DNA of 64,000 bases from Sedimenticola hydrogenitrophicus (GTDB lineage: Bacteria; Pseudomonadota; Gammaproteobacteria; Chromatiales; Chromatiaceae), in contig NZ_JANIOA010000021.1 of assembly GCF_025175675.1 (NCBI RefSeq), positions 1 to 64,000 of the forward strand. The letters are read 5' to 3'. The notes beneath the pieces are model-generated. The model ran no database searches and had not been told where the DNA came from. It was given only the letters and a program-made list of their open reading frames with translations. The position numbers and the translations under genes were made by a program. Position 1 is the first letter of the stretch. Each line of letters begins with the position of its first letter. Below, one piece after another: positions 23,504 through 35,419 of the stretch.

Positions 23504-24477
23504 TCGACTTTCGAACACTCTATTCGGCGATGCAGGCCCACGGGCTGGGAGCCTGGGCGGAACAGTTGCCGGGGCAGCTGGAGCAGCTTTTCACCCAGCG
23601 TCCCCATGGCGATCTGGAGCGCTGGCTCGCCGTGATTGCCCGACTTCCGGTACCGGAACCGGGAGTGGTGACACTGGACCGCTCCCAGGTCGGTGCCGCC
23701 GGCACCCGACCCCTGACGGAGACTGAACAGCAGACGATCCAGGCACTGCTCCAGGAGTTACACCCCTGGCGCAAGGGCCCGTACCGGATCCATGGTATTC
23801 ATATCGATACCGAGTGGCGCTCGGACTGGAAGTGGGACCGGGCGCGCCCCCACATCACTCCGTTGGCGGGCCGAAGCGTGCTGGACATCGGCTGCGGCAA
23901 CGGCTATCACTGCTGGCGCATGGCCGGTGAGGGGGCCGGTCTGGTGGTCGGCATCGACCCGACCCAGCTGTTCCTGGCCCAGTTCCTAGCCATACGCCAC
24001 TTTCTTGGCGAAGACTGGCCGGTGCATCTGTTGCCGCTGGGCATCGAGCATCTGCCGCCCGACCTGGGCGCCTTCGACACGGTCTTCTCTATGGGTGTGC
24101 TCTACCACCGGCGCTCCCCCATCGACCACCTCTATGAGTTGAAGGCGACCCTGCGTCCGGGGGGCGAACTGGTTCTGGAGACCCTGGTGATAGAGGGCGG
24201 GCCGGGACAGGTGCTGTTGCCGGAGGGCCGTTACGCGAAGATGCGCAATGTCTGGTTCATTCCCACCCCTGCCACCCTCGCGGGCTGGCTGGAACGCTGC
24301 GGCTTCCGCGACGTGCGGGTGGTGGATGTAACCCCCACCAGTACCCGGGAGCAGCGCGCCACCGACTGGATGCGCTTCGAATCCCTGGCCGATTATCTCG
24401 ATCCGGCCGATCCCGGCCGTACCATCGAGGGATACCCGGCACCCACGCGGGCGGTCCTGGTGGCCACCGCACCCTGA
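23500..24477 (+). CDS. cmoB: tRNA U34 carboxymethyltransferase CmoB
   Basis: Transfers the carboxymethyl group of carboxy-SAM to 5-hydroxyuridine 34 in tRNA. 325 aa. Family signatures: GPYRIHGIHIDTEWRSDWKW, the Rossmann motif LDIGCGNGYHCWRM and VFSMGVLYHRRSPIDHL. ATG 23500 overlaps the cmoA stop by 4 bp. The C-terminus shows RATDWMRFESLADYLDP, as expected. Confidence 0.97.
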   Translation: MIDFRTLYSAMQAHGLGAWAEQLPGQLEQLFTQRPHGDLERWLAVIARLPVPEPGVVTLDRSQVGAAGTRPLTETEQQTIQALLQELHPWRKGPYRIHGIHIDTEWRSDWKWDRARPHITPLAGRSVLDIGCGNGYHCWRMAGEGAGLVVGIDPTQLFLAQFLAIRHFLGEDWPVHLLPLGIEHLPPDLGAFDTVFSMGVLYHRRSPIDHLYELKATLRPGGELVLETLVIEGGPGQVLLPEGRYAKMRNVWFIPTPATLAGWLERCGFRDVRVVDVTPTSTREQRATDWMRFESLADYLDPADPGRTIEGYPAPTRAVLVATAP

Positions 24478-24492
24478 GGTCGGCTTGGTTCG

Positions 24493-24564
24493 CGTAAAGG
24501 GGTCCGTAAAGGGGTCAGAGCCCTTAACATACGCCCCATTAGCCCGGGGCGGGGCTCCTACAGG
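24493..24564. repeat. Small intergenic repeats after cmoB
   Basis: A direct repeat CGTAAAGGGGTC occurs twice (about 24494-24520), then AGCCCGGGGCGGGGCTCCTAC (24541-24560 region). The latter resembles stretches at 37753-37780 and 51348-51373, so it is a REP-type motif found between genes here. No coding content. Confidence 0.45.
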
Positions 24565-24570
24565 TGCTTG

Positions 24571-25455
24571 TTAATTGCCCCCCGCCGCCATCTTCAAGGC
24601 CTGCTCGATGCCATCCGGCGCATCGGATATCTTCATGAAGGTGGTCATGGTCAGATCGGGGAAGCTCTGGGCAATACGGAACTTGCCGTGCAGCATGTAG
24701 ACCTTGCCGCCCGAGACCAGCAGATCATAGGGCAGATGGGCGGTATGCCGCATCGCGGCCTGATCGATAATCTGCATCACCGGAGCGTCCGCCCCGGCAC
24801 CCTGCTTCACCGCCACATTGAACAGTGACTCCTCCTTGCCGATCACATCCACCCGGGAGATCAGGGTCACCCCCCCTTTACCGGCGGCCAGGCCGGCCTC
24901 GACGGCGTCCAGCGCCGCCTGGTGGGAGTCATAGCTGGCCAGCTCCACCTGATCGTCAAAATAGGGCATGAACATCATGTAGTGATATTCGCGCAGGTTC
25001 TCCACCGTGCGGCCACCCTCCGAACCGAAGGTGTTCTCCCGCCCCAGGGCGGCCTGCAGACGGTCGGACAGCGCCTTGAAATCACCCGCCATGCGGTAGA
25101 CATTGCCCATCCACCGCGGATCGGTATAGCTGACCTGTACGGCCCCGTCCTGCTCCGTCAGGGAGACCCGGAGGGCTACGCCATAGCCGCCCATGGGGGA
25201 CCCCGCGGCCTGCTTGCGCAGACTCTCGTCGGTAATGATCAGGATATGCGCACCGGCATAGGGGACATATTCACCGGCGATGGCAAAACCCGCCTGACCC
25301 AGTGCCGCCTGGACCGATTGCAGCTTGGCATCCAGCGGAGTCTGGCTCGTCTCCGCCAGGACGAAGGGCCTGAGCCGATCCGCGTCCTGAGCCATGAGGG
25401 AAAAACTGGTTAATAAGAGTGACAGCAGCACGGCTGCAATTTGAACAGTTCGCAT
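24571..25455 (-). CDS. Periplasmic protein of unknown function
   Basis: 294 aa with a Sec signal of about 22 residues (LLSLLLTSFSLMAQ) and a mature protein that looks like two alpha/beta halves (about 30-150 and 160-285). One stretch, GGYGVALRVSLTEQDG followed by VQVSYTDPRW, is reminiscent of DUF302-type proteins, but I cannot assign the family. GGAGGAAACC before the ATG is a strong ribosome site. No cysteine pairs or metal motifs are evident. Monocistronic. Confidence 0.75.
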   Translation of the reverse strand: MRTVQIAAVLLSLLLTSFSLMAQDADRLRPFVLAETSQTPLDAKLQSVQAALGQAGFAIAGEYVPYAGAHILIITDESLRKQAAGSPMGGYGVALRVSLTEQDGAVQVSYTDPRWMGNVYRMAGDFKALSDRLQAALGRENTFGSEGGRTVENLREYHYMMFMPYFDDQVELASYDSHQAALDAVEAGLAAGKGGVTLISRVDVIGKEESLFNVAVKQGAGADAPVMQIIDQAAMRHTAHLPYDLLVSGGKVYMLHGKFRIAQSFPDLTMTTFMKISDAPDGIEQALKMAAGGN

Positions 25456-27710: not shown

Positions 27711-29198
27711 TCAGGGTTTAGCAGCCGTCTGTTTCGGCAGATAGGCGTTCAGCCCCTCCACCATCTGTTTGGCCGAGATGCCATGGGCGAACTTGGTGAT
27801 GAACTCGCCGTTGGGCGCCATCAGATAGACGCTGGCCGAGTGATCCATGATGTAGAGATCGGGATCGCCGCCCTCCTCGATCACCTTCTCGTACCTCACC
27901 TTGTAGGCCTTGGCCACCCGCTCGATCATCGCCTTGGTGCCGGTGAGTCCCATCAGCTCCTGATTGAAGTACTTGACGTAGTTCTTCATCACCTGGGCAT
28001 TGTCCCGCTCCGGGTCCACGGTGATGAAGTAGGGTTTGATCAGGGCGGCCCGCTCGCCGAGCATATCCAGCGCCAGCGACATCACCTGCAGCGAGGTGGG
28101 GCAGATATCGGGGCAGAAGGTGTAGCCGAAATAGAGCATCTGGTACTTGCCCAGCAGGTCCTTCTCGGTGACCAGCTTGCCGTTGTGGTCGATCAGCATG
28201 AACTTGCCGCCGATGCGGTTGGTTTCCGGTTCAAACTGCTCAGCCGTTGCCAGCGCGGCCGGCTCGCCGCTGTACTGGAGACAGCTCTTGATGGCGGCGG
28301 TGTTCTCCTCCATGAGCTGGAAATAGAGCTCCGGACCGGCGGCGAAGCCGCTGCCCAGGCTATCCAGGACACCGATATTGATATCGACCCCCTCGGTCAG
28401 CAGCGGCAGTTCCGGCATCGGCATGCCCCGTTCGGTCAGCAGACAGCTGTAATAACCCTCTTTCAGCCGGGCATGGCTCTGCAACAGGTTGATCGCCTCC
28501 AGCGGCTGTTCCGGCGACTGGGTCAGCACCCCGCGAATCTTCAGCGCATAGGCCTGCTCGAAATACTGCAAGGTATCAAAGTAGGCCATGCCCACCCCGC
28601 TCTTCAGCCCCCGGTAGCCATACTCCAGGCGCCGGTCCAGCTCGGCCACCCGCACCAGCAGCTTGGCGCGGTTCCTCCGGTAGAGATGGGCGCGGCCGTT
28701 GTCCGCGTCCATCAGGGCCCGGGCCAGCTCATCCACCAGGATCAGGGTATTGCGGCTGTCCATCCAGATAAACGGGTCGCGTTCGGTTGAATCCTCGCGC
28801 TTGCTCCAGCGGGAGGGCAGAATCTTCAGTTCCGGATTATCCAGCAGGGTGACCACCTGCCTGCCCGACTGTTGCGCCTGCGTCACCGGTCCGATCAGAA
28901 ACTTCTCCAGCTCAGGCCCCACCCAGACGACCAGGTCGGCCGCGGCCAGGCTGGCCTGCTGCGCCTCGCTCAGCCGGTAGCCGAACGGCAGCGCATCCCC
29001 CTCCAGCAGCAGCTCCGGTCCTTCGGTACCGACCATCAGGCCGGCCAGGATGGAGTGGATCGGCTTGATGCTGGTGACCACGCGGAAGGCCGTCTCCGCC
29101 AGCAGAGACTGGCTGCCCAGCAACAGCAGAAGCGCCAGCAATGGAACCGGCACTGAATGAAGAATCGAACGGGAAAAAGCTGCGCTGAATCTGTTCAC
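27711..29198 (-). CDS. Fusion of a degenerate ZnuA-like domain with a Sco1/SenC domain
   Basis: 495-aa exported protein (signal ending LLGSQSLLA). The N-terminal part (about 35-290) follows the TroA/ZnuA cluster-9 binding fold: VTSIKPIHSILAGLM, ADLVVWVGPELEKFL, and the conserved aspartate in VLDSLGSG. The three zinc-ligand histidines are all Phe: LPFGYRL for SPHdY, DPFIWMD for DPHIWLD, AYFDTLQYF for fHDAYgYF. The C-terminal part (about 315-485) is a Sco domain with the copper/redox motif CPDIC (C362, C366), DPERD and H453 in DHSASVYL. Sco proteins deliver copper to cytochrome oxidase CuA. GTG 29198 chosen; GTG 29225 adds nine residues. Couples with the small gene upstream. Confidence 0.85.
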   Translation of the reverse strand: MNRFSAAFSRSILHSVPVPLLALLLLLGSQSLLAETAFRVVTSIKPIHSILAGLMVGTEGPELLLEGDALPFGYRLSEAQQASLAAADLVVWVGPELEKFLIGPVTQAQQSGRQVVTLLDNPELKILPSRWSKREDSTERDPFIWMDSRNTLILVDELARALMDADNGRAHLYRRNRAKLLVRVAELDRRLEYGYRGLKSGVGMAYFDTLQYFEQAYALKIRGVLTQSPEQPLEAINLLQSHARLKEGYYSCLLTERGMPMPELPLLTEGVDINIGVLDSLGSGFAAGPELYFQLMEENTAAIKSCLQYSGEPAALATAEQFEPETNRIGGKFMLIDHNGKLVTEKDLLGKYQMLYFGYTFCPDICPTSLQVMSLALDMLGERAALIKPYFITVDPERDNAQVMKNYVKYFNQELMGLTGTKAMIERVAKAYKVRYEKVIEEGGDPDLYIMDHSASVYLMAPNGEFITKFAHGISAKQMVEGLNAYLPKQTAAKP

Positions 29199-29228
29199 GA
29201 ATACCTGCCCACCTGCGGTTGCCACGAT

Positions 29229-29576
29229 TTATTGCTCGGCAAACACGGCATCCAATACCAGGATTGCCGCGTCTACCTGTTTGCTGAAGGCCACTTCCGC
29301 GGGACAGCTCGCCTTGGTTTCAATGAATTTCAGAAAGGCGGTATTGGTCTCCTGGTCGAATGCCTCGCCATATTGCCGGCGCTTGGGAAGCGCCAGCACC
29401 AGGGCCTTTTTCATGCGCTGGGTTTCGCTCAGAAAACGGCAGTGGAGTGCCACGCCGTTCAGTTCGCCCAGTTGCTGTATGGCGTTGAACTGCTTGTCAT
29501 CCATGCCTTCCGCCTGCGCCAGGCCGTTGAACAATAACGCTGCTAGCAATGGCACAATCAACCGCATACCTATCAT
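29229..29576 (-). CDS. Small exported protein paired with the Sco fusion
   Basis: 115 aa with a signal peptide (IVPLLAALLFNGLAQA). The mature protein is mainly helical, with two cysteines (in ALHCRFLSE and KASCPAEV) that may form a disulphide. It ends about 30 bp before the Sco-fusion start on the same strand, so the two form an operon. No family recognised; a periplasmic accessory role is inferred from context only. Confidence 0.65.
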   Translation of the reverse strand: MIGMRLIVPLLAALLFNGLAQAEGMDDKQFNAIQQLGELNGVALHCRFLSETQRMKKALVLALPKRRQYGEAFDQETNTAFLKFIETKASCPAEVAFSKQVDAAILVLDAVFAEQ

Positions 29577-30414: not shown

Positions 30415-31398
30415 ATGTCTCGATATAAATCACTCGCATTGCTGCTGATCCTCTCCCTGCAGGGCCTCCCGGGGCACTCCGCCGGCCTGGTCGGAGAGCC
30501 GATCCGTCTCGCCAACGGTGTCGGCGACGGCGACCGTTTCATGGGCGTCGAGTTGCTGGGGAGCCTGTCGTTGAAGGGAGATCCGGCGCTCGCTGAACTC
30601 TCCGGTCTGGCCTGGGATGAGGACGAGCAGACACTGCTGGCGGTCTCGGACAGGGGATGGCTGCTGTGGCTGAAGCCTCACTTCAGCGAAGGGCATCTCA
30701 GCCAGGTGGAGTTGACGGCCAGCTACCCGCTACGCGACCGGCGGGAGGCCCCACTACGCAGCGGCTGGCGCGACGCCGAAGGCCTGACCCTGGAACAGAG
30801 CGCCAACGGGATCCAGGGAGACACCCGTCTGATAGTCTCGTTCGAACGCCGTCACCGGATCGAAAGCTACCGCCCCGACGGTCGCTGGCTGGCCACCCTG
30901 CCCCTGCCCGCAAGATTGCGGGAAACCGGTTACCGACCGAAAAGCAATCGCAGTCTGGAGGCGGTCACCCTGCACCCGCAACACGGCCTGGTCACCGGCC
31001 CGGAGTCCCCCCCCGATGGCCGCCCCCCTTATCTGGCCAATTATCTGATCAATGCCGCCGGACAGGTCTGGGAGTATGCGTTCAAGGAGCCGGATGGTGC
31101 CCTGGTGGCGCTGGAGGCGCTGCCGAATGGCGACCTGATCCTGCTGGAGCGGGCCTACACCTCGATCTTCTCTCCCTGGGTGATCAGTCTGACCCGCATC
31201 CGCGCCACCGACCTCGCTACCGGCTCAACCATGGACACAGAAACCATCGCCCGCTTCGACAGCGGCCAGGGCTGGCTGATGCAGAACATGGAGGGGCTGA
31301 CCCGCCACCGGGAGATGCGCTTCTTCATGGTCAGCGACGACGGGAGCCTGCCCTGGGCCCAGACTCAGCTGCTCTATTTCCGCATCGTCTCTGAGTGA
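30415..31398 (+). CDS. Exported esterase-like phytase family protein
   Basis: 327 aa with a signal peptide (LALLLILSLQGLPGHSA). The mature part is a beta-propeller of the esterase-like phytase type: ELSGLAWDEDEQTLLAVSDRG, DAEGLTLE, SFERRHRI and NMEGLTRH are characteristic repeats. Actual substrate unknown. Its 3' end overlaps the convergent tesA end by 25 bp. Confidence 0.85.
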   Translation: MSRYKSLALLLILSLQGLPGHSAGLVGEPIRLANGVGDGDRFMGVELLGSLSLKGDPALAELSGLAWDEDEQTLLAVSDRGWLLWLKPHFSEGHLSQVELTASYPLRDRREAPLRSGWRDAEGLTLEQSANGIQGDTRLIVSFERRHRIESYRPDGRWLATLPLPARLRETGYRPKSNRSLEAVTLHPQHGLVTGPESPPDGRPPYLANYLINAAGQVWEYAFKEPDGALVALEALPNGDLILLERAYTSIFSPWVISLTRIRATDLATGSTMDTETIARFDSGQGWLMQNMEGLTRHREMRFFMVSDDGSLPWAQTQLLYFRIVSE

Positions 31399-32027
31399 GT
31401 CACCGCCAGGTCCCCTGCCGGCTCACCGTCCAGCATCGGCCGCAGCCGCTCCCAGACATGCTCCAGCATCAGCGGTTGGCCTTGCGCGTTGGGATGGATC
31501 CCGTCGCCCTGCATCCACTCCGGCCGATCCGCCACCCCCGCCAGAAAGAACGGCACCAGGGGCACACGGTGCTGTTCGGCCAGCTCCCGGTAGATTCCCA
31601 GGAACTTCTCGGTGAACGCCTTGCCGAAATTTGGAGGCAGCATCATCCCCAACAGCAGCGGGCGGCTATCGGCGTTCCGGGCAAGTGTTATCATCTGATC
31701 CAGGTGGTCGCGAGTCTGATGGTTGCCGAGCCCCCGCAGGCCGTCGTTGCCACCCAGTTCGATAATCAGGATCTCCGGCTGGAACTGTGCAAGCGCCCGG
31801 GGAAGCCGTGCCAGACCACCGGCCGTGGTGTCACCCGAGATACTGGCGTTGACCACCCGATGCGGGTAACCGGTCTCCTGCAGGCGGATCTGCAGCAAGG
31901 CCACCCAGCCGCGGCTACGCTCAATACCGTAGGCCGCGCTCAGACTGTCACCCAGAACAACAATCACCGGCTCGGCAGCCGATACATTGGACATAGCCAA
32001 AATCAACAACAGGAATAGTCTCTTCAT
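31374..32027 (-). CDS. tesA: Periplasmic GDSL acyl-CoA thioesterase I / lysophospholipase
   Basis: 217 aa with a signal peptide (LFLLLILAMSNVSA). Block I VVLGDSLSAAYGI (catalytic Ser), block II SISGDTTAGGLAR, block III ELGGNDGLRG and block V DGIHPN with the catalytic Asp/His are all present. Broad esterase, thioesterase and lysophospholipase activity is known for the family. Its ATG overlaps the divergent ybbA ATG within CATG at 32025-32028. Confidence 0.94.
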   Translation of the reverse strand: MKRLFLLLILAMSNVSAAEPVIVVLGDSLSAAYGIERSRGWVALLQIRLQETGYPHRVVNASISGDTTAGGLARLPRALAQFQPEILIIELGGNDGLRGLGNHQTRDHLDQMITLARNADSRPLLLGMMLPPNFGKAFTEKFLGIYRELAEQHRVPLVPFFLAGVADRPEWMQGDGIHPNAQGQPLMLEHVWERLRPMLDGEPAGDLAVTHSETMRK

Positions 32028-32724
32028 GGACACAGATCATACCCCAGACAGCATCCTGGTAAAGGCCACCGGCGTGGGTAAACGGGTAAACGGACCGGGT
32101 GGCAGCCTGACCATCCTGGACGATGTCTCGTTGCAACTCGCCAGCGGCGAGGTCACTGCCATCCTCGGTGCCTCCGGCTCGGGCAAGTCCACCCTGCTGG
32201 GACTGCTGGCGGGGCTGGACGAGGCGAGCAGCGGCCAGATCGAACTGTTCGGTACCCCGCTGAACGCGCTCGATGAGGACCAGCGCGCCGCCCTGCGTGC
32301 CGGCAAGGTCGGCTTTGTCTTCCAGTCCTTCCAACTATTGCCCGGCATGACGGCCTTGGAGAATGTGATGCTGCCGCTGGAGCTGGCGGGGGTCGCCCGC
32401 CCGGCGCAGGGGGCCGGCGAGGCGCTGCGCCAAGTCGGCCTGGCCGATCGACTGCACCACTATCCCGCCCAGCTCTCCGGCGGCGAGCAGCAGCGGGTCG
32501 CCATCGCCCGCGCCTTCGCCTCCGGCCCCAAGGTGCTGTTCGCCGATGAGCCCACCGGCAGTCTCGATCAGGCCACCGGCAGCCGCATCATCGACCTGCT
32601 GTTCCGGATGCGCGAGCAGACCGGGGCGGCACTGCTGCTGGTCACCCACGACGAGCGGCTGGCGGCGCGCTGCGATCACCGCCTGCAGATCGAGAACGGA
32701 CGTTTGGAGCAGGACACATGGTAA
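32026..32724 (+). CDS. ybbA: ABC transporter ATPase YbbA
   Basis: 232-aa ATPase of the LolD/MacB type: [34 protein letters not shown]. Partner of the large permease that follows; divergent tesA next door is the order seen in E. coli. ATG 32026 chosen. The stop codon TAA (32722-32724) is supplied by the inserted MITE: without it the gene would end EQDT with TGA overlapping the ybbP ATG. The final Trp is therefore element-encoded. Confidence 0.94.
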
Positions 32725-32924
32725 CTACTCACGGGGTGATTGGCCTGCCTTGCCGGCCTCACACGATGGCTTGTATCCTCGAATCCGGCCCCTATTTCAG
32801 CGCCTGCCCAAACTCGCTTCGCTCAAACAAGGGCAGGCTTGAATCTGAAAAAGGGGCCGGATCCGAGGCGCCATCAAGATCGGCCAACAAGGCAGGCCAA
32901 TCCCTTACAGACCGAGCGAGATAC
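32721..32924. mobile_element. MITE, GTAA-element family, copy 3 (204 bp), at the ybbA-ybbP junction
   Basis: Begins GTAACTACTCACGGGG and ends CCGAGCGAGATAC. It is flanked by a perfect 8-bp duplication GACACATG at 32713-32720 and 32925-32932. The right duplication supplies the ybbP start codon. Arms pair over CCTGCC/GGCAGG and GGGGCCGGAT. Removing the element and one duplication restores GACACATGAAC, an ATGA overlap of ybbA and ybbP. Confidence 0.92.
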
Positions 32925-32929
32925 GACAC

Positions 32930-35419
32930 ATGAACACCCTCCTGCTGGCCCTGCGCTTCCTGCGCCACGACTGGCGCAGCGGTGAACTGCGGCTGCTGGT
33001 GCTGGCCCTGATTATCGCCGTTTCGGCCGTGACGGCGGTGGGATTCTTCACCAACCGGGTCGAGCAGGCGATGGTGCTGCAGGCCAATCAGGTGATGGCG
33101 GCCGATCTGGTACTCTTCAGCCACCGCCCGATTGCCGAATCCTTCGAACAGCGCGCGACCGAACTCGGTCTGCGCACCGCCCACACCCTCAGTTTCCCCA
33201 GCGTCATCCTGCACCGGGACGAGACCCAGCTGGTGGAGGTCAAGGCGGTGAGCCGCGACTATCCCCTGCGCGGCGAGCTGCGTGTCCGACCCCAGGCGGC
33301 GGCCGAAGAGCAGCGCGTCACCCGTCCACCCGCGGCGGGCAACCTGTGGGGCGAGGCGCGGCTGATGGCGGCCCTCGAACTGCAGCCGGGAGACCGGGTC
33401 TCCCTGGGTGAGCTGAACCTAAACCTGGAGCAGATCCTGAGCCGTGACTCGGCCCTCGGCAACAACTTCTTCCGCCTCGGCCCGGAAGTGCTGATCGCCC
33501 TGGAGGATATCCCGAAAACCGGCCTGGTCACCCCGGCCAGCCGGGTGCACTATCGCCTGCTGGTGGCCGGCGAGCGGAACCCGGTGGAGAGCTACCAGCG
33601 CTGGGCCCGGACACGGCTGCCGCGCGGGGTGCGCCTGGAGCACCTGAGCAGCGCCCGCCCCGAACTGCGCAACACCCTGGACCGGGGCAGCCGCTTCCTC
33701 AGTCTGGCGGCGCTGGTGGCGGTGCTGGTGGCCGGCGCCACCGTCGCCCTCTCTACCCGCCGCTTTGTCGAACGCCAGTCGGACACCAGTGCCATCATGC
33801 GCTGCCTGGGGGCCAGCCAGTCGCTGATCCTGTGGGTGCTGCTGCTGCGGCTGCTGCTGCTCGGCCTGCTGGCGAGCCTGCTGGGGATCGCCGTTGGCTG
33901 GTTGGCGCAGTACCTGCTGGCCGGCCTGCTGAGCGACTGGTTCGGCGGCACCCTGCCGTCGCCGACCCCCTGGCCGATCCTGGTGGGGCTGGGCACCGGC
34001 CTGATCACCCTGGTCGGCTTCACCCTGCCGCCGGCCCTGCGCCTGGGCGCCGTGCCGCCGCTCCGGGTGCTGCGCCGCGACCTCGGGGCACCGCCCGTCA
34101 GCACCTGGCTGCTGGCCGTTTGCGCCATCGGCGCCATGGCGCTGCTGATGCGCTGGCAGGCCGGCGATGCGACCCTGGCCGGCTGGGTTCTGCTCGGCAC
34201 CCTCGGCACGGTCTCGCTGCTGCTGTTGGCGGGCTGGCTGCTGATCCGCCTGCTGCGGCCGTTGCGCCATCGCGGCGGAACGCGTTGGCGCCAGGGGCTC
34301 GCCGGACTGCTGCGGGACCCCGCCATGACCACCCTGCAGCTCACCGGCTTCGGCCTCGGGATACTCGCCATGCTGCTGCTGGGGATTATCCGCACGGATC
34401 TGCTGGACGCCTGGCACCGCACCATCCCGGAGCAGGCCCCCAACCATTTCTTGATCAACATCCAACCGGAGAACGTGGCGGGGATGCAAGAGTTCTTCCG
34501 CCGCGAGCAGATCCAACCGGCCGGCATCTACCCCATGCTGCGCGCCCGCCTCACCCGCATCAACGACAAACCGGTGGCTCCCGAACAGTATCAGGATGAC
34601 CGCGCCCAGCGACTGGTGGAGCGGGAATTCAATCTCTCCTGGGCGGTCGAGCCGCAAACCGGTAGCCGGATTGTCTCCGGCCGCTGGTGGGGGGATGAGA
34701 ACCGGGAGGCGCCCCTGTTCTCGGTGGAGACGGGGATCGCGGAGACCCTCGGCATCAAGCTGGGTGACCGGCTCGGTTTTGACCTCGCCGGGGTGCCCAT
34801 AGAGGCCCGGGTCGCCAACCTGCGGCAGGTGCGTTGGGACTCGTTCCAGCCCAACTTTTTCGTCATCGGCACCCCGGCCCTGCTGCGGGATCATCCCACC
34901 AATTACATCACCAGTTTCTACCTGCCGCCGGGCCGGGAGGCGCTGCTGGCGCAACTGGTACGCCAATACCCCTCGGTCACCATCATCGACGTCAGCGCCA
35001 TTATGCGGCAGATCCGCGAGATCATGCAGCGCGGTTCGCTGGCGGTGGAGTATGTCTTCCTGTTCACCCTGGCGGCCGGCCTGCTGATGCTCTACGCCGG
35101 CATCCAGGCGAGCCGCGAACACCGCCGCCAGGAGTCGGTGGTGCTGCGCACCCTGGGGATGCAGCGCCGCGGGCTGATCGAGGCGGCCGGGATCGAGTTC
35201 GTCACCCTCGGCCTGCTGGCCGGCACCCTGGCCAGCCTGTGCGCCACCGCCACCGGCTGGTTCATTGCCACCGAGGTGTTCGGCTTCAATTTCCAGCCCA
35301 GTCTCTGGACCGCCATTGTCGGCATCCTCGGCAGCGGTTCCGCCATCGGTATCGCCGGGGTATTGGCCACCTGGCCGTTGACAGTGCGGCCGCCGTTACG
35401 GATGCTGCAGGACGGCTGA
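32930..35419 (+). CDS. ybbP: ABC transporter permease YbbP
   Basis: 829-aa FtsX-like permease with an N-terminal helix (LLVLALIIAVSAVTAVGFF), a large periplasmic region, and two sets of transmembrane helices (about 250-430 and 700-829) carrying FtsX motifs such as LRTLGMQRRGLIEAAG. In E. coli the YbbA-YbbP complex is an MacB-like mechanotransmission system acting with TesA at the envelope. The ATG comes from the target duplication of the upstream MITE, and the only ribosome-site-like sequence (GAGCGAG) lies inside the MITE. Its stop overlaps polB (TGATG). Confidence 0.93.
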   Translation: MNTLLLALRFLRHDWRSGELRLLVLALIIAVSAVTAVGFFTNRVEQAMVLQANQVMAADLVLFSHRPIAESFEQRATELGLRTAHTLSFPSVILHRDETQLVEVKAVSRDYPLRGELRVRPQAAAEEQRVTRPPAAGNLWGEARLMAALELQPGDRVSLGELNLNLEQILSRDSALGNNFFRLGPEVLIALEDIPKTGLVTPASRVHYRLLVAGERNPVESYQRWARTRLPRGVRLEHLSSARPELRNTLDRGSRFLSLAALVAVLVAGATVALSTRRFVERQSDTSAIMRCLGASQSLILWVLLLRLLLLGLLASLLGIAVGWLAQYLLAGLLSDWFGGTLPSPTPWPILVGLGTGLITLVGFTLPPALRLGAVPPLRVLRRDLGAPPVSTWLLAVCAIGAMALLMRWQAGDATLAGWVLLGTLGTVSLLLLAGWLLIRLLRPLRHRGGTRWRQGLAGLLRDPAMTTLQLTGFGLGILAMLLLGIIRTDLLDAWHRTIPEQAPNHFLINIQPENVAGMQEFFRREQIQPAGIYPMLRARLTRINDKPVAPEQYQDDRAQRLVEREFNLSWAVEPQTGSRIVSGRWWGDENREAPLFSVETGIAETLGIKLGDRLGFDLAGVPIEARVANLRQVRWDSFQPNFFVIGTPALLRDHPTNYITSFYLPPGREALLAQLVRQYPSVTIIDVSAIMRQIREIMQRGSLAVEYVFLFTLAAGLLMLYAGIQASREHRRQESVVLRTLGMQRRGLIEAAGIEFVTLGLLAGTLASLCATATGWFIATEVFGFNFQPSLWTAIVGILGSGSAIGIAGVLATWPLTVRPPLRMLQDG

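Follow-up and report, generated by a model that had tools for sequence, protein, structure and literature searches.

A ZnuA-like/Sco fusion with a small two-cysteine partner follows clade II NosZ and may serve maturation of its copper site

Which client does a Sco-type copper chaperone serve when it is fused to a substrate-binding domain that has exchanged its metal ligands for aromatic residues? The question is raised by a gene pair of Sedimenticola hydrogenitrophicus, lying in a stretch of 64,000 nucleotides (the window, that is, the whole DNA analysed), in which a gene for a ZnuA-like/Sco fusion protein (P0001) is preceded by a gene for a small protein with two cysteines (P0002; Table 1). 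Sco proteins deliver Cu(I) to CuA sites or reduce the CuA cysteines. The initial annotation of the window had suggested that the ZnuA-like domain was repurposed, perhaps for protein docking or a hydrophobic ligand, to guide copper delivery, and had pointed to oxidase CuA assembly. The repurposing fits the findings (a ZnuA fold without its zinc site is joined to an intact Sco domain), and the target had to be revised. The pair is probably, as far as our moderate confidence goes, a maturation module for a copper site, most likely CuA, of the clade II (Sec-dependent) nitrous oxide reductase NosZ, with the ZnuA-like part as a metal-free binding domain.

Scanning a genome collection with the window protein returned 64 loci. 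The ZnuA-like part is present at 62 of these (L009-L070); at 60 it shares one frame with Sco, and two are cut at contig ends. The remaining two loci match Sco alone. With 60 relatives carrying both domains in frame, and the two contig-cut ones besides, chance resemblance and assembly artefact were rejected as explanations of the fusion. The 62 relatives are all from Gammaproteobacteria, among which sulfur oxidisers (Sedimenticola, Thiodiazotropha) and Chromatiales bins are numerous, and the nearest (93% identity) is likewise from Sedimenticola hydrogenitrophicus. One of the six search patterns held the window's own residue at the second ligand site (below), so the sampling leans toward window-like sequences.

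Co-occurrence of the fusion with clade II NosZ was counted in an order-level sample of 210 genomes, in which genomes not listed count as negative and those with completeness of 90% or more and contamination of 5% or less were classed as good. Strong fragments were accepted for NosZ (in one case, G060, with 121.7 bits), and genomes whose best match was a full-length protein of 430-500 bits (clade I type), G206 (with pieces of such a protein) and G011 (122.5 bits) were scored as negative. For the fusion, 13 of 88 matches, those covering ZnuA or Sco alone, were set aside, and partial (G168, G170, G173, G176) and split genes (G003, on two contigs; G078, in two frames) were counted. Among the good genomes 58 had both fusion and NosZ, 2 the fusion only, 24 NosZ only and 84 neither, NosZ thus being present in 58 of 60 fusion genomes; the corresponding numbers for all 210 genomes were 65, 10, 33 and 102. 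In a class-level sample of 369 genomes, clade II NosZ exceeded the cut-off in all 7 fusion genomes, compared with 14 of 362 others, and after removal of the window's own family in 5 of 5 (from four families), compared with 13 of 360. Two of the 14 NosZ genomes without the fusion (G223 and G526) hold the module in split form. The fusion was absent from all 38 class genomes with only below-cut-off NosZ matches, a few of these matches being fragments, and outside the order clade II NosZ exceeded the cut-off in each of the 10 genomes in which the module occurs, in whatever form. As a separate observation, a frame of 592 residues on contig C44 of G011 (24080-25078) partially matches the model for clade II NosZ (122 bits) and is perhaps another NosZ type.

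The gene neighbourhood points to the same client. Counting nosZ, nosB, nosD, nosG, nosH, nosL and nosY only, nos neighbours were found at 24 of the 62 loci (L009-L070). Sec-dependent (clade II) nosZ adjoins the pair at 20 of them, 19 times directly downstream on the same strand and once (L029) upstream on the opposite strand, and is often trailed by genes for c-type cytochromes, nosB and nosD. At the other four (L034, L048, L060 and L061) the pair comes after a series of nos maturation genes whose last member is nosY, 0-3 genes intervening. NosZ was verified by profile at L046 (TIGR04246, 880 bits) and elsewhere assigned by sequence cluster; NosD of L030, cut by the contig end, matched TIGR04247 (86 bits). 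Profiles were also used to check a NapH-type NosH, a NosY (ABC-2 permease) and a NosL falling just short of its threshold (23.5 bits, cut-off 24), while nosB and nosG were named from likeness and position.

The module also occurs in rearranged forms, and every genome with such a form carries clade II NosZ. In G919 the small gene and a stand-alone Sco gene close a nosBDGHFLY run (genes named by likeness), in G201 the small protein is fused to Sco without a ZnuA-like part, and G334 has small gene plus Sco. G223 has small gene plus Sco at one place and, at another, a stand-alone ZnuA-like protein (F, Y and H at the three ligand sites) adjoining a DsbD-type membrane protein and a thioredoxin-fold protein; G526 carries a small-Sco fusion and a stand-alone ZnuA-like gene on separate contigs. 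Weaker small-protein matches were seen next to a Sco in six genomes belonging to one genus. From these forms it follows that the small protein and Sco are the core, and the ZnuA-like part a third, usually fused, component. At locus L097 (4964-7439), a stand-alone ZnuA-like family protein with F, Y and H stands beside DsbD-type and thioredoxin-fold proteins, an arrangement hinting at thiol-redox partners.

Taking TTGAT-N4-ATCAA as the FNR/DNR consensus, boxes with at least 9 of 10 matches were found in 17 of 60 upstream regions, compared with 0.71 expected from shuffles preserving base composition; the loci being related, these are not 17 independent events. The site of the window itself is weak (Table 1) and lies near the position of the 9-of-10 sites in L010, L013 and L014. 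A scan for promoters and terminators gave numbers near those of shuffled sequences.

The fusion protein consists of an export signal, the ZnuA-like domain and the Sco domain, in that order, and both domain calls of the initial annotation were borne out by profile matches in a single open frame (Table 1). Translation more probably begins at the GTG at 29198 (VNRFSAAF), since VNR is found at this point in relatives L010 and L013 too. The Sco half is intact, as had been claimed: CPD[IV]C is present in all 61 family rows that reach the region (the other 2 of 63 end at contig ends), and the copper-ligand position of H462 is His in 61 rows and invariant in a 28-row alignment. An AlphaFold model built from 28 rows had a mean predicted local distance difference test score (pLDDT) of 83.6 and a predicted template modelling score (pTM) of 0.59, the lower pTM leaving the relative placing of the two domains open. 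The ZnuA half of the model matched E. coli ZnuA entries with template modelling (TM) scores of 0.84-0.89 and the Sco half ScoI structures with about 0.9 (both normalised by target), so that the TroA/ZnuA fold, proposed earlier for a structural check, was upheld. By alignment with E. coli ZnuA, the cysteine pair of ZnuA (C261 and C315) is retained.

The metal site of this domain is another matter. Three positions (sites 1 to 3) that align with E. coli ZnuA histidines, which we take to be zinc ligands, are Phe in the window as first read from the sequence, and the ligand Asp (site 4) is kept; the loop that is His-rich and charged in ZnuA reads KILPSRWSKREDSTERD in the window and is free of His. 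The three sites were compared across 71 different family domains, two of them stand-alone (L097 and L111), and 22 canonical ZnuAs of the same class, without Sco, picked as strong matches to the family profile. Identical rows (L087, L105 and L108) were removed, L136 and L138 were not included, and the other PF01297 protein of the window's genome was left out. All 22 canonical proteins read HHH. In the family, site 1 was Y in 36, F in 15, H in 9 and W in 3 domains, plus others; site 2 was F in 39, Y in 21, H in 9 and L in 2; and site 3 was Y in 25, F in 23 and H in 19, plus others, the less frequent residues including a few L, Q, G, T and D. F, Y or W occupied all three sites in 39 of 71 domains, and F, Y, W or H in 59; FFF was found in 7, HHH in 5 and at least one His in 25. 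The full zinc triad is thus lost in 66 of 71 family members, and its replacement is aromatic rather than Phe: uniform His-to-Phe exchange describes the window and its close kin, and was rejected as a rule for the family.

These counts also bear on the strongest competing explanation, that metal binding by the ZnuA-like half persists in altered form (through Tyr/His/Asp, or of Cu(I) by cation-pi contacts) and that this half stores copper or hands it to Sco. The 25 domains with a His, the five HHH members, the frequent Tyr and the Asp or Asn at site 4 in all 69 sequences with a letter there speak for it; the 39 domains with nothing other than F, Y or W at sites 1 to 3, the seven FFF members, and the window's own FFF plus Asp, a poor metal site next to a His-free loop, speak against it, and we regard it as unlikely. 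A transferrin-like Tyr/Tyr/His/Asp iron site was considered separately: YYHD occurs in 1 of 63 rows (L040), and the window's FFFD cannot form such a site.

A tree of 97 N-terminal domains (74 family rows and 23 canonical proteins, with 8 duplicate loci removed beforehand) separated the family from the canonical proteins by a single branch with support 100/100. Over the whole tree, at least 20, 15 and 22 changes were required at sites 1, 2 and 3, respectively. The five HHH sequences (L042, L044, L053, L056 and L059) are fusions, and all have Asn at site 4. Fusions with the histidines in place, which the initial annotation had named as evidence against its proposal, therefore do exist, a formal counter-case that is softened because the five are nested among aromatic members in the tree, where a regain is the probable reading. 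They form one clade within a 17-row clade (100/99) whose other members read YYY, YYH, YYF, YFF and HFY; support for the exact sister branch of the five is weak (91/39). In a likelihood model with three states (His, aromatic, other), the parent node of the HHH clade came out as aromatic at 0.95 or above at all three sites; in the same model, which is crude, site 3 of the family ancestor was undecided (P(H) 0.45). HHH members have 11-12 His in the domain, the window 3. The clade looks like a regained histidine triad, which is suggestive only, being a single event; ancestral retention was thought unlikely, given the aromatic parent node and the nesting in the 17-row clade.

Several observations weigh against a dedicated role in NosZ maturation. 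The co-occurrence counts are raw and uncorrected for shared ancestry. NosZ was not found in 10 of the 75 fusion genomes of the order, 8 of which are at most 84% complete, and the 24 good order genomes with NosZ and no fusion mean that the module is not essential for NosZ. No nos gene was seen in the fetched stretch at 38 of the 62 loci, many contigs being short, and nirS-like genes lie near the fusion at five loci (L025, L029, L036, L066 and L069; verified by PF02239 for L025 only). In the window's genome the module (contig C47) lies away from the nos genes, with nosZ on contig C82 and another Sco and a PCuAC on that nos contig; copper delivery there would be possible without the module, which may for the same reason be an auxiliary or low-copper route. 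Finally, the CuA subunit CoxB, sought in the same 210 genomes, is associated with the fusion overall (43 genomes with both, 32 with the fusion only, 31 with CoxB only and 104 with neither) and among NosZ-negative genomes (6/4/19/83 in the same order, p 0.008). The two good-quality fusion genomes without NosZ are particular cases: in G137 the fusion contig stops about 200 bases past the gene, and in G014 genes that by eye we take to be transposase-like lie just upstream of nosY, the small gene and the fusion (sites W, F and Q). Contig end and transposase-like genes are possible reasons for these exceptions. Locus L110 (6531-10374) shows the latter arrangement, with nosY, small gene and fusion directly downstream of transposase-like genes, in a genome without detected clade II NosZ and with W, F and Q at the sites.

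The CoxB associations fit the alternative that the Sco half assembles CuA of an aa3-type cytochrome c oxidase and that the link with NosZ is a by-product of lifestyle, as do the general repute of Sco proteins, which are best known for oxidase CuA, and the two CoxB genes of the window's genome. Against this, 28 of the 75 fusion genomes have NosZ and no CoxB. Six have CoxB and no NosZ, four of them at most 82% complete and the others being G014 and G137. Among CoxB-negative genomes fusion and NosZ remain strongly associated (28 with both, 4 with the fusion only, 21 with NosZ only and 83 with neither), whereas among NosZ-positive genomes the link between fusion and CoxB is weak (37/28/12/21, p 0.087). 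The recognised neighbours at the 24 loci mentioned are nos genes, cox genes not having been sought among neighbours. On balance the CoxB control favours NosZ over the oxidase as client, and the oxidase explanation is given a rather low probability.

Two further explanations are improbable. That the ZnuA-like half is a decaying passenger, drifting after loss of its zinc site upon fusion, would suit the frequent site changes on the tree, the occasional L, Q, G, T and D, and the NosZ genomes that use small protein and Sco without it; yet at 22 positions one residue is present in 85% or more of the family and in 15% or less of canonical ZnuA, the family figure being 100% at six of them (K134, E201, Y204, R205, Y215 and A227), 33 conserved positions are common to both, and sites 1 to 3 stay largely within F, Y, W and H, so that, judged from the alignment, the domain is far from decayed. 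That the client is a different denitrification protein (either cytochrome cd1 nitrite reductase or a c-type cytochrome), which the module would mature or protect, and that NosZ is tracked through denitrifiers carrying both, would agree with the five nirS-like neighbours and with FNR/DNR boxes, which suit any denitrification gene, but nos neighbours are commoner and occur in two different nos positions, and a general denitrification role would not predict the absence of the fusion from the 38 genomes with below-cut-off NosZ matches.

In the maturation of clade II NosZ that we favour, the Sco half would carry Cu(I), reduce the CuA cysteines, or both, via CPDIC and the distal His, as ScoI/SenC proteins do; copper delivery as such is suggested by this homology, and CuA as the target by analogy with the literature on Sco and NosZ. 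The ZnuA-like half, its old ligand positions aromatic and other positions newly fixed, would no longer bind zinc in most members and may have a protein-docking role, as a metal-free clamp that keeps its client, either NosZ itself or some partner (for instance P0002), in place for Sco. The small helical protein, itself exported, would be a constant partner of Sco, perhaps handling thiols and disulfides or handing over copper. The module presumably plays the same role in the window organism, where nosZ lies on a different contig. A bolder version, to which we give some credence short of an even chance, is a dedicated three-part CuA machine of clade II N2O reducers (small protein, ZnuA-like pseudo-substrate-binding domain and Sco), in which the aromatic clamp would capture an organic copper complex or the CuA loop of NosZ for Sco, and a Thiodiazotropha-like lineage would have re-evolved HHH, perhaps with metal binding.

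The small two-Cys protein recognised in the initial annotation is real, with a signal-like N-terminus, and was found at 62 of 63 loci (the window counted), the exception, L062, starting at the fusion. Close spacing and conserved adjacency suggest that the two genes are co-transcribed, as had been supposed. The structure model of P0002 is a confident four-helix one (pLDDT 91.5). It belongs to no Pfam or NCBIfam family; a Pfam scan of 26 aligned members gave at best 0.00029, to DUF3218 and in one member only, and a fold search against solved structures returned 47 matches, none at E <= 0.001. Pden_4445 of Paracoccus denitrificans was considered as a possible counterpart of P0002. No match to the small protein was found among 72,556 plasmids or in a phage search, nor in the single P. 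versutus Sco region examined, and in a phylum-wide draw the protein occurred in 4 of 378 genomes, including the window's own.

Table 1. Positions in the window of the small gene, the fusion gene and their features
Feature	Residues	Positions	Strand	Details
Small exported two-Cys four-helix protein (P0002)		29229..29576	(-)	115 aa; C46 and C91 invariant; directly upstream of fusion
ZnuA-like/Sco fusion gene (P0001)		27711..29225	(-)	504 aa counted from outermost GTG; single open frame
ZnuA-like domain	49-315	28281..29081	(-)	PF01297, 106 bits on protein (cut-off 29), 108 bits on DNA span
Sco domain	339-475	27801..28211	(-)	PF02630 SCO1-SenC, 164 bits on protein (cut-off 22.8), 167.6 bits on DNA
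Site 1 (LPFGYRL)	F81	28983..28985	(-)	aligned with E. coli ZnuA His
Site 2 (DPFIWMD)	F152	28770..28772	(-)	aligned with E. coli ZnuA His
Site 3 (AYFDTLQ)	F216	28578..28580	(-)	aligned with E. coli ZnuA His
Site 4, kept Asp	D288	28362..28364	(-)	of the 69 family sequences with a letter here, 55 have D and 14 N
Sco CxxxC motif (CPDIC)	C371, C375	28101..28115	(-)	alignment of family rows
Sco copper-ligand His	H462	27840..27842	(-)	alignment of family rows
FNR/DNR-like site TTGATATTGGGCAA		29647..29660	(-)	8/10 matches; 70 bases upstream of small gene; weak in window itself

The immediate neighbours of the fusion in the window are the small gene and a DUF2889 gene upstream and a NUDIX gene downstream; ZnuB or ZnuC genes, which encode the ABC permease and ATPase partners of ZnuA and as a rule adjoin its gene, were not found beside it. 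Elsewhere in the genome there are one more PF01297 match (228 bits), reading E-H-H at the three sites and adjoined by a frame that by eye is ABC-ATPase-like, and five more PF02630 matches, two of them weak. Further along the window, a 294-residue exported-looking protein (24571-25455, minus strand) has no Pfam or NCBIfam match, and similar genes lie near the module in five Sedimenticola loci. Positions 31374-35419 encode a TesA-like esterase, an ABC ATPase and a large FtsX-like permease, which we take to be the common YbbA-YbbP-TesA set. At locus L016 (10289-12121, minus strand) a single protein joins a NapC/NirT cytochrome domain to an ethylbenzene-dehydrogenase-like domain.

Among biological sinks for N2O, a greenhouse gas, clade II NosZ is an important one, and a conserved Sco module that tracks it, often behind an FNR-type box, supplies named genes to test. 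The ZnuA-like domain is in addition an example of a substrate-binding protein without its metal site that is nevertheless strongly constrained, and its living relatives offer a graded His/Tyr/Phe series open to direct assay. Sco and ZnuA by themselves are familiar; in a search of the open-access literature (subscription papers being outside it), no description was found of the ZnuA-Sco fusion or the module, of the aromatic site, of the small family or of the NosZ link.

Compared with ScoI/SenC/Sco1 proteins (PF02630), the Sco half has the same thioredoxin-like fold, CPD[IV]C with a distal His and an export signal, and its model resembles Bradyrhizobium ScoI and human SCO1 (TM about 0.9); the fusion differs in its additional N-terminal ZnuA-like domain (~270 residues), in following the small two-Cys protein and in tracking clade II NosZ. 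With ZnuA and other cluster A-I (TroA-like, PF01297) proteins it shares the whole-domain match, the fold, the Asp and the cysteine pair, whereas the family has F or Y in place of the His ligands in most members, is joined to Sco and forms a clade apart from the 23 canonical proteins, the window member further differing in its His-free loop and in having no adjoining ZnuB/ZnuC genes. A parallel exists in P. denitrificans, where N2O reduction under copper limitation is supported by senC2 (a Sco homologue), pcuC and Pden_4445, and where CuA of NosZ is concluded to be assembled in a more oxidase-like manner, apart from the NosL route for CuZ (PMC7558416); it is because Sco and PCuAC act in this way there that CuA maturation is proposed here for clade II NosZ. 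Both sets thus combine a Sco homologue with a protein of unassigned function in support of NosZ and are thought to act on CuA, but the account of the P. denitrificans set mentions no ZnuA-like fusion (PMC7558416), and the NosZ of that species is exported by Tat, not Sec (PMC6530538). NosL, described as the copper chaperone for CuZ, is likewise a periplasmic nos-linked Cu(I) chaperone, but it is of a different family and serves the other site (PMC6530538); since several nos clusters have NosL-like genes in the vicinity of the fusion, the fusion does not simply replace NosL.

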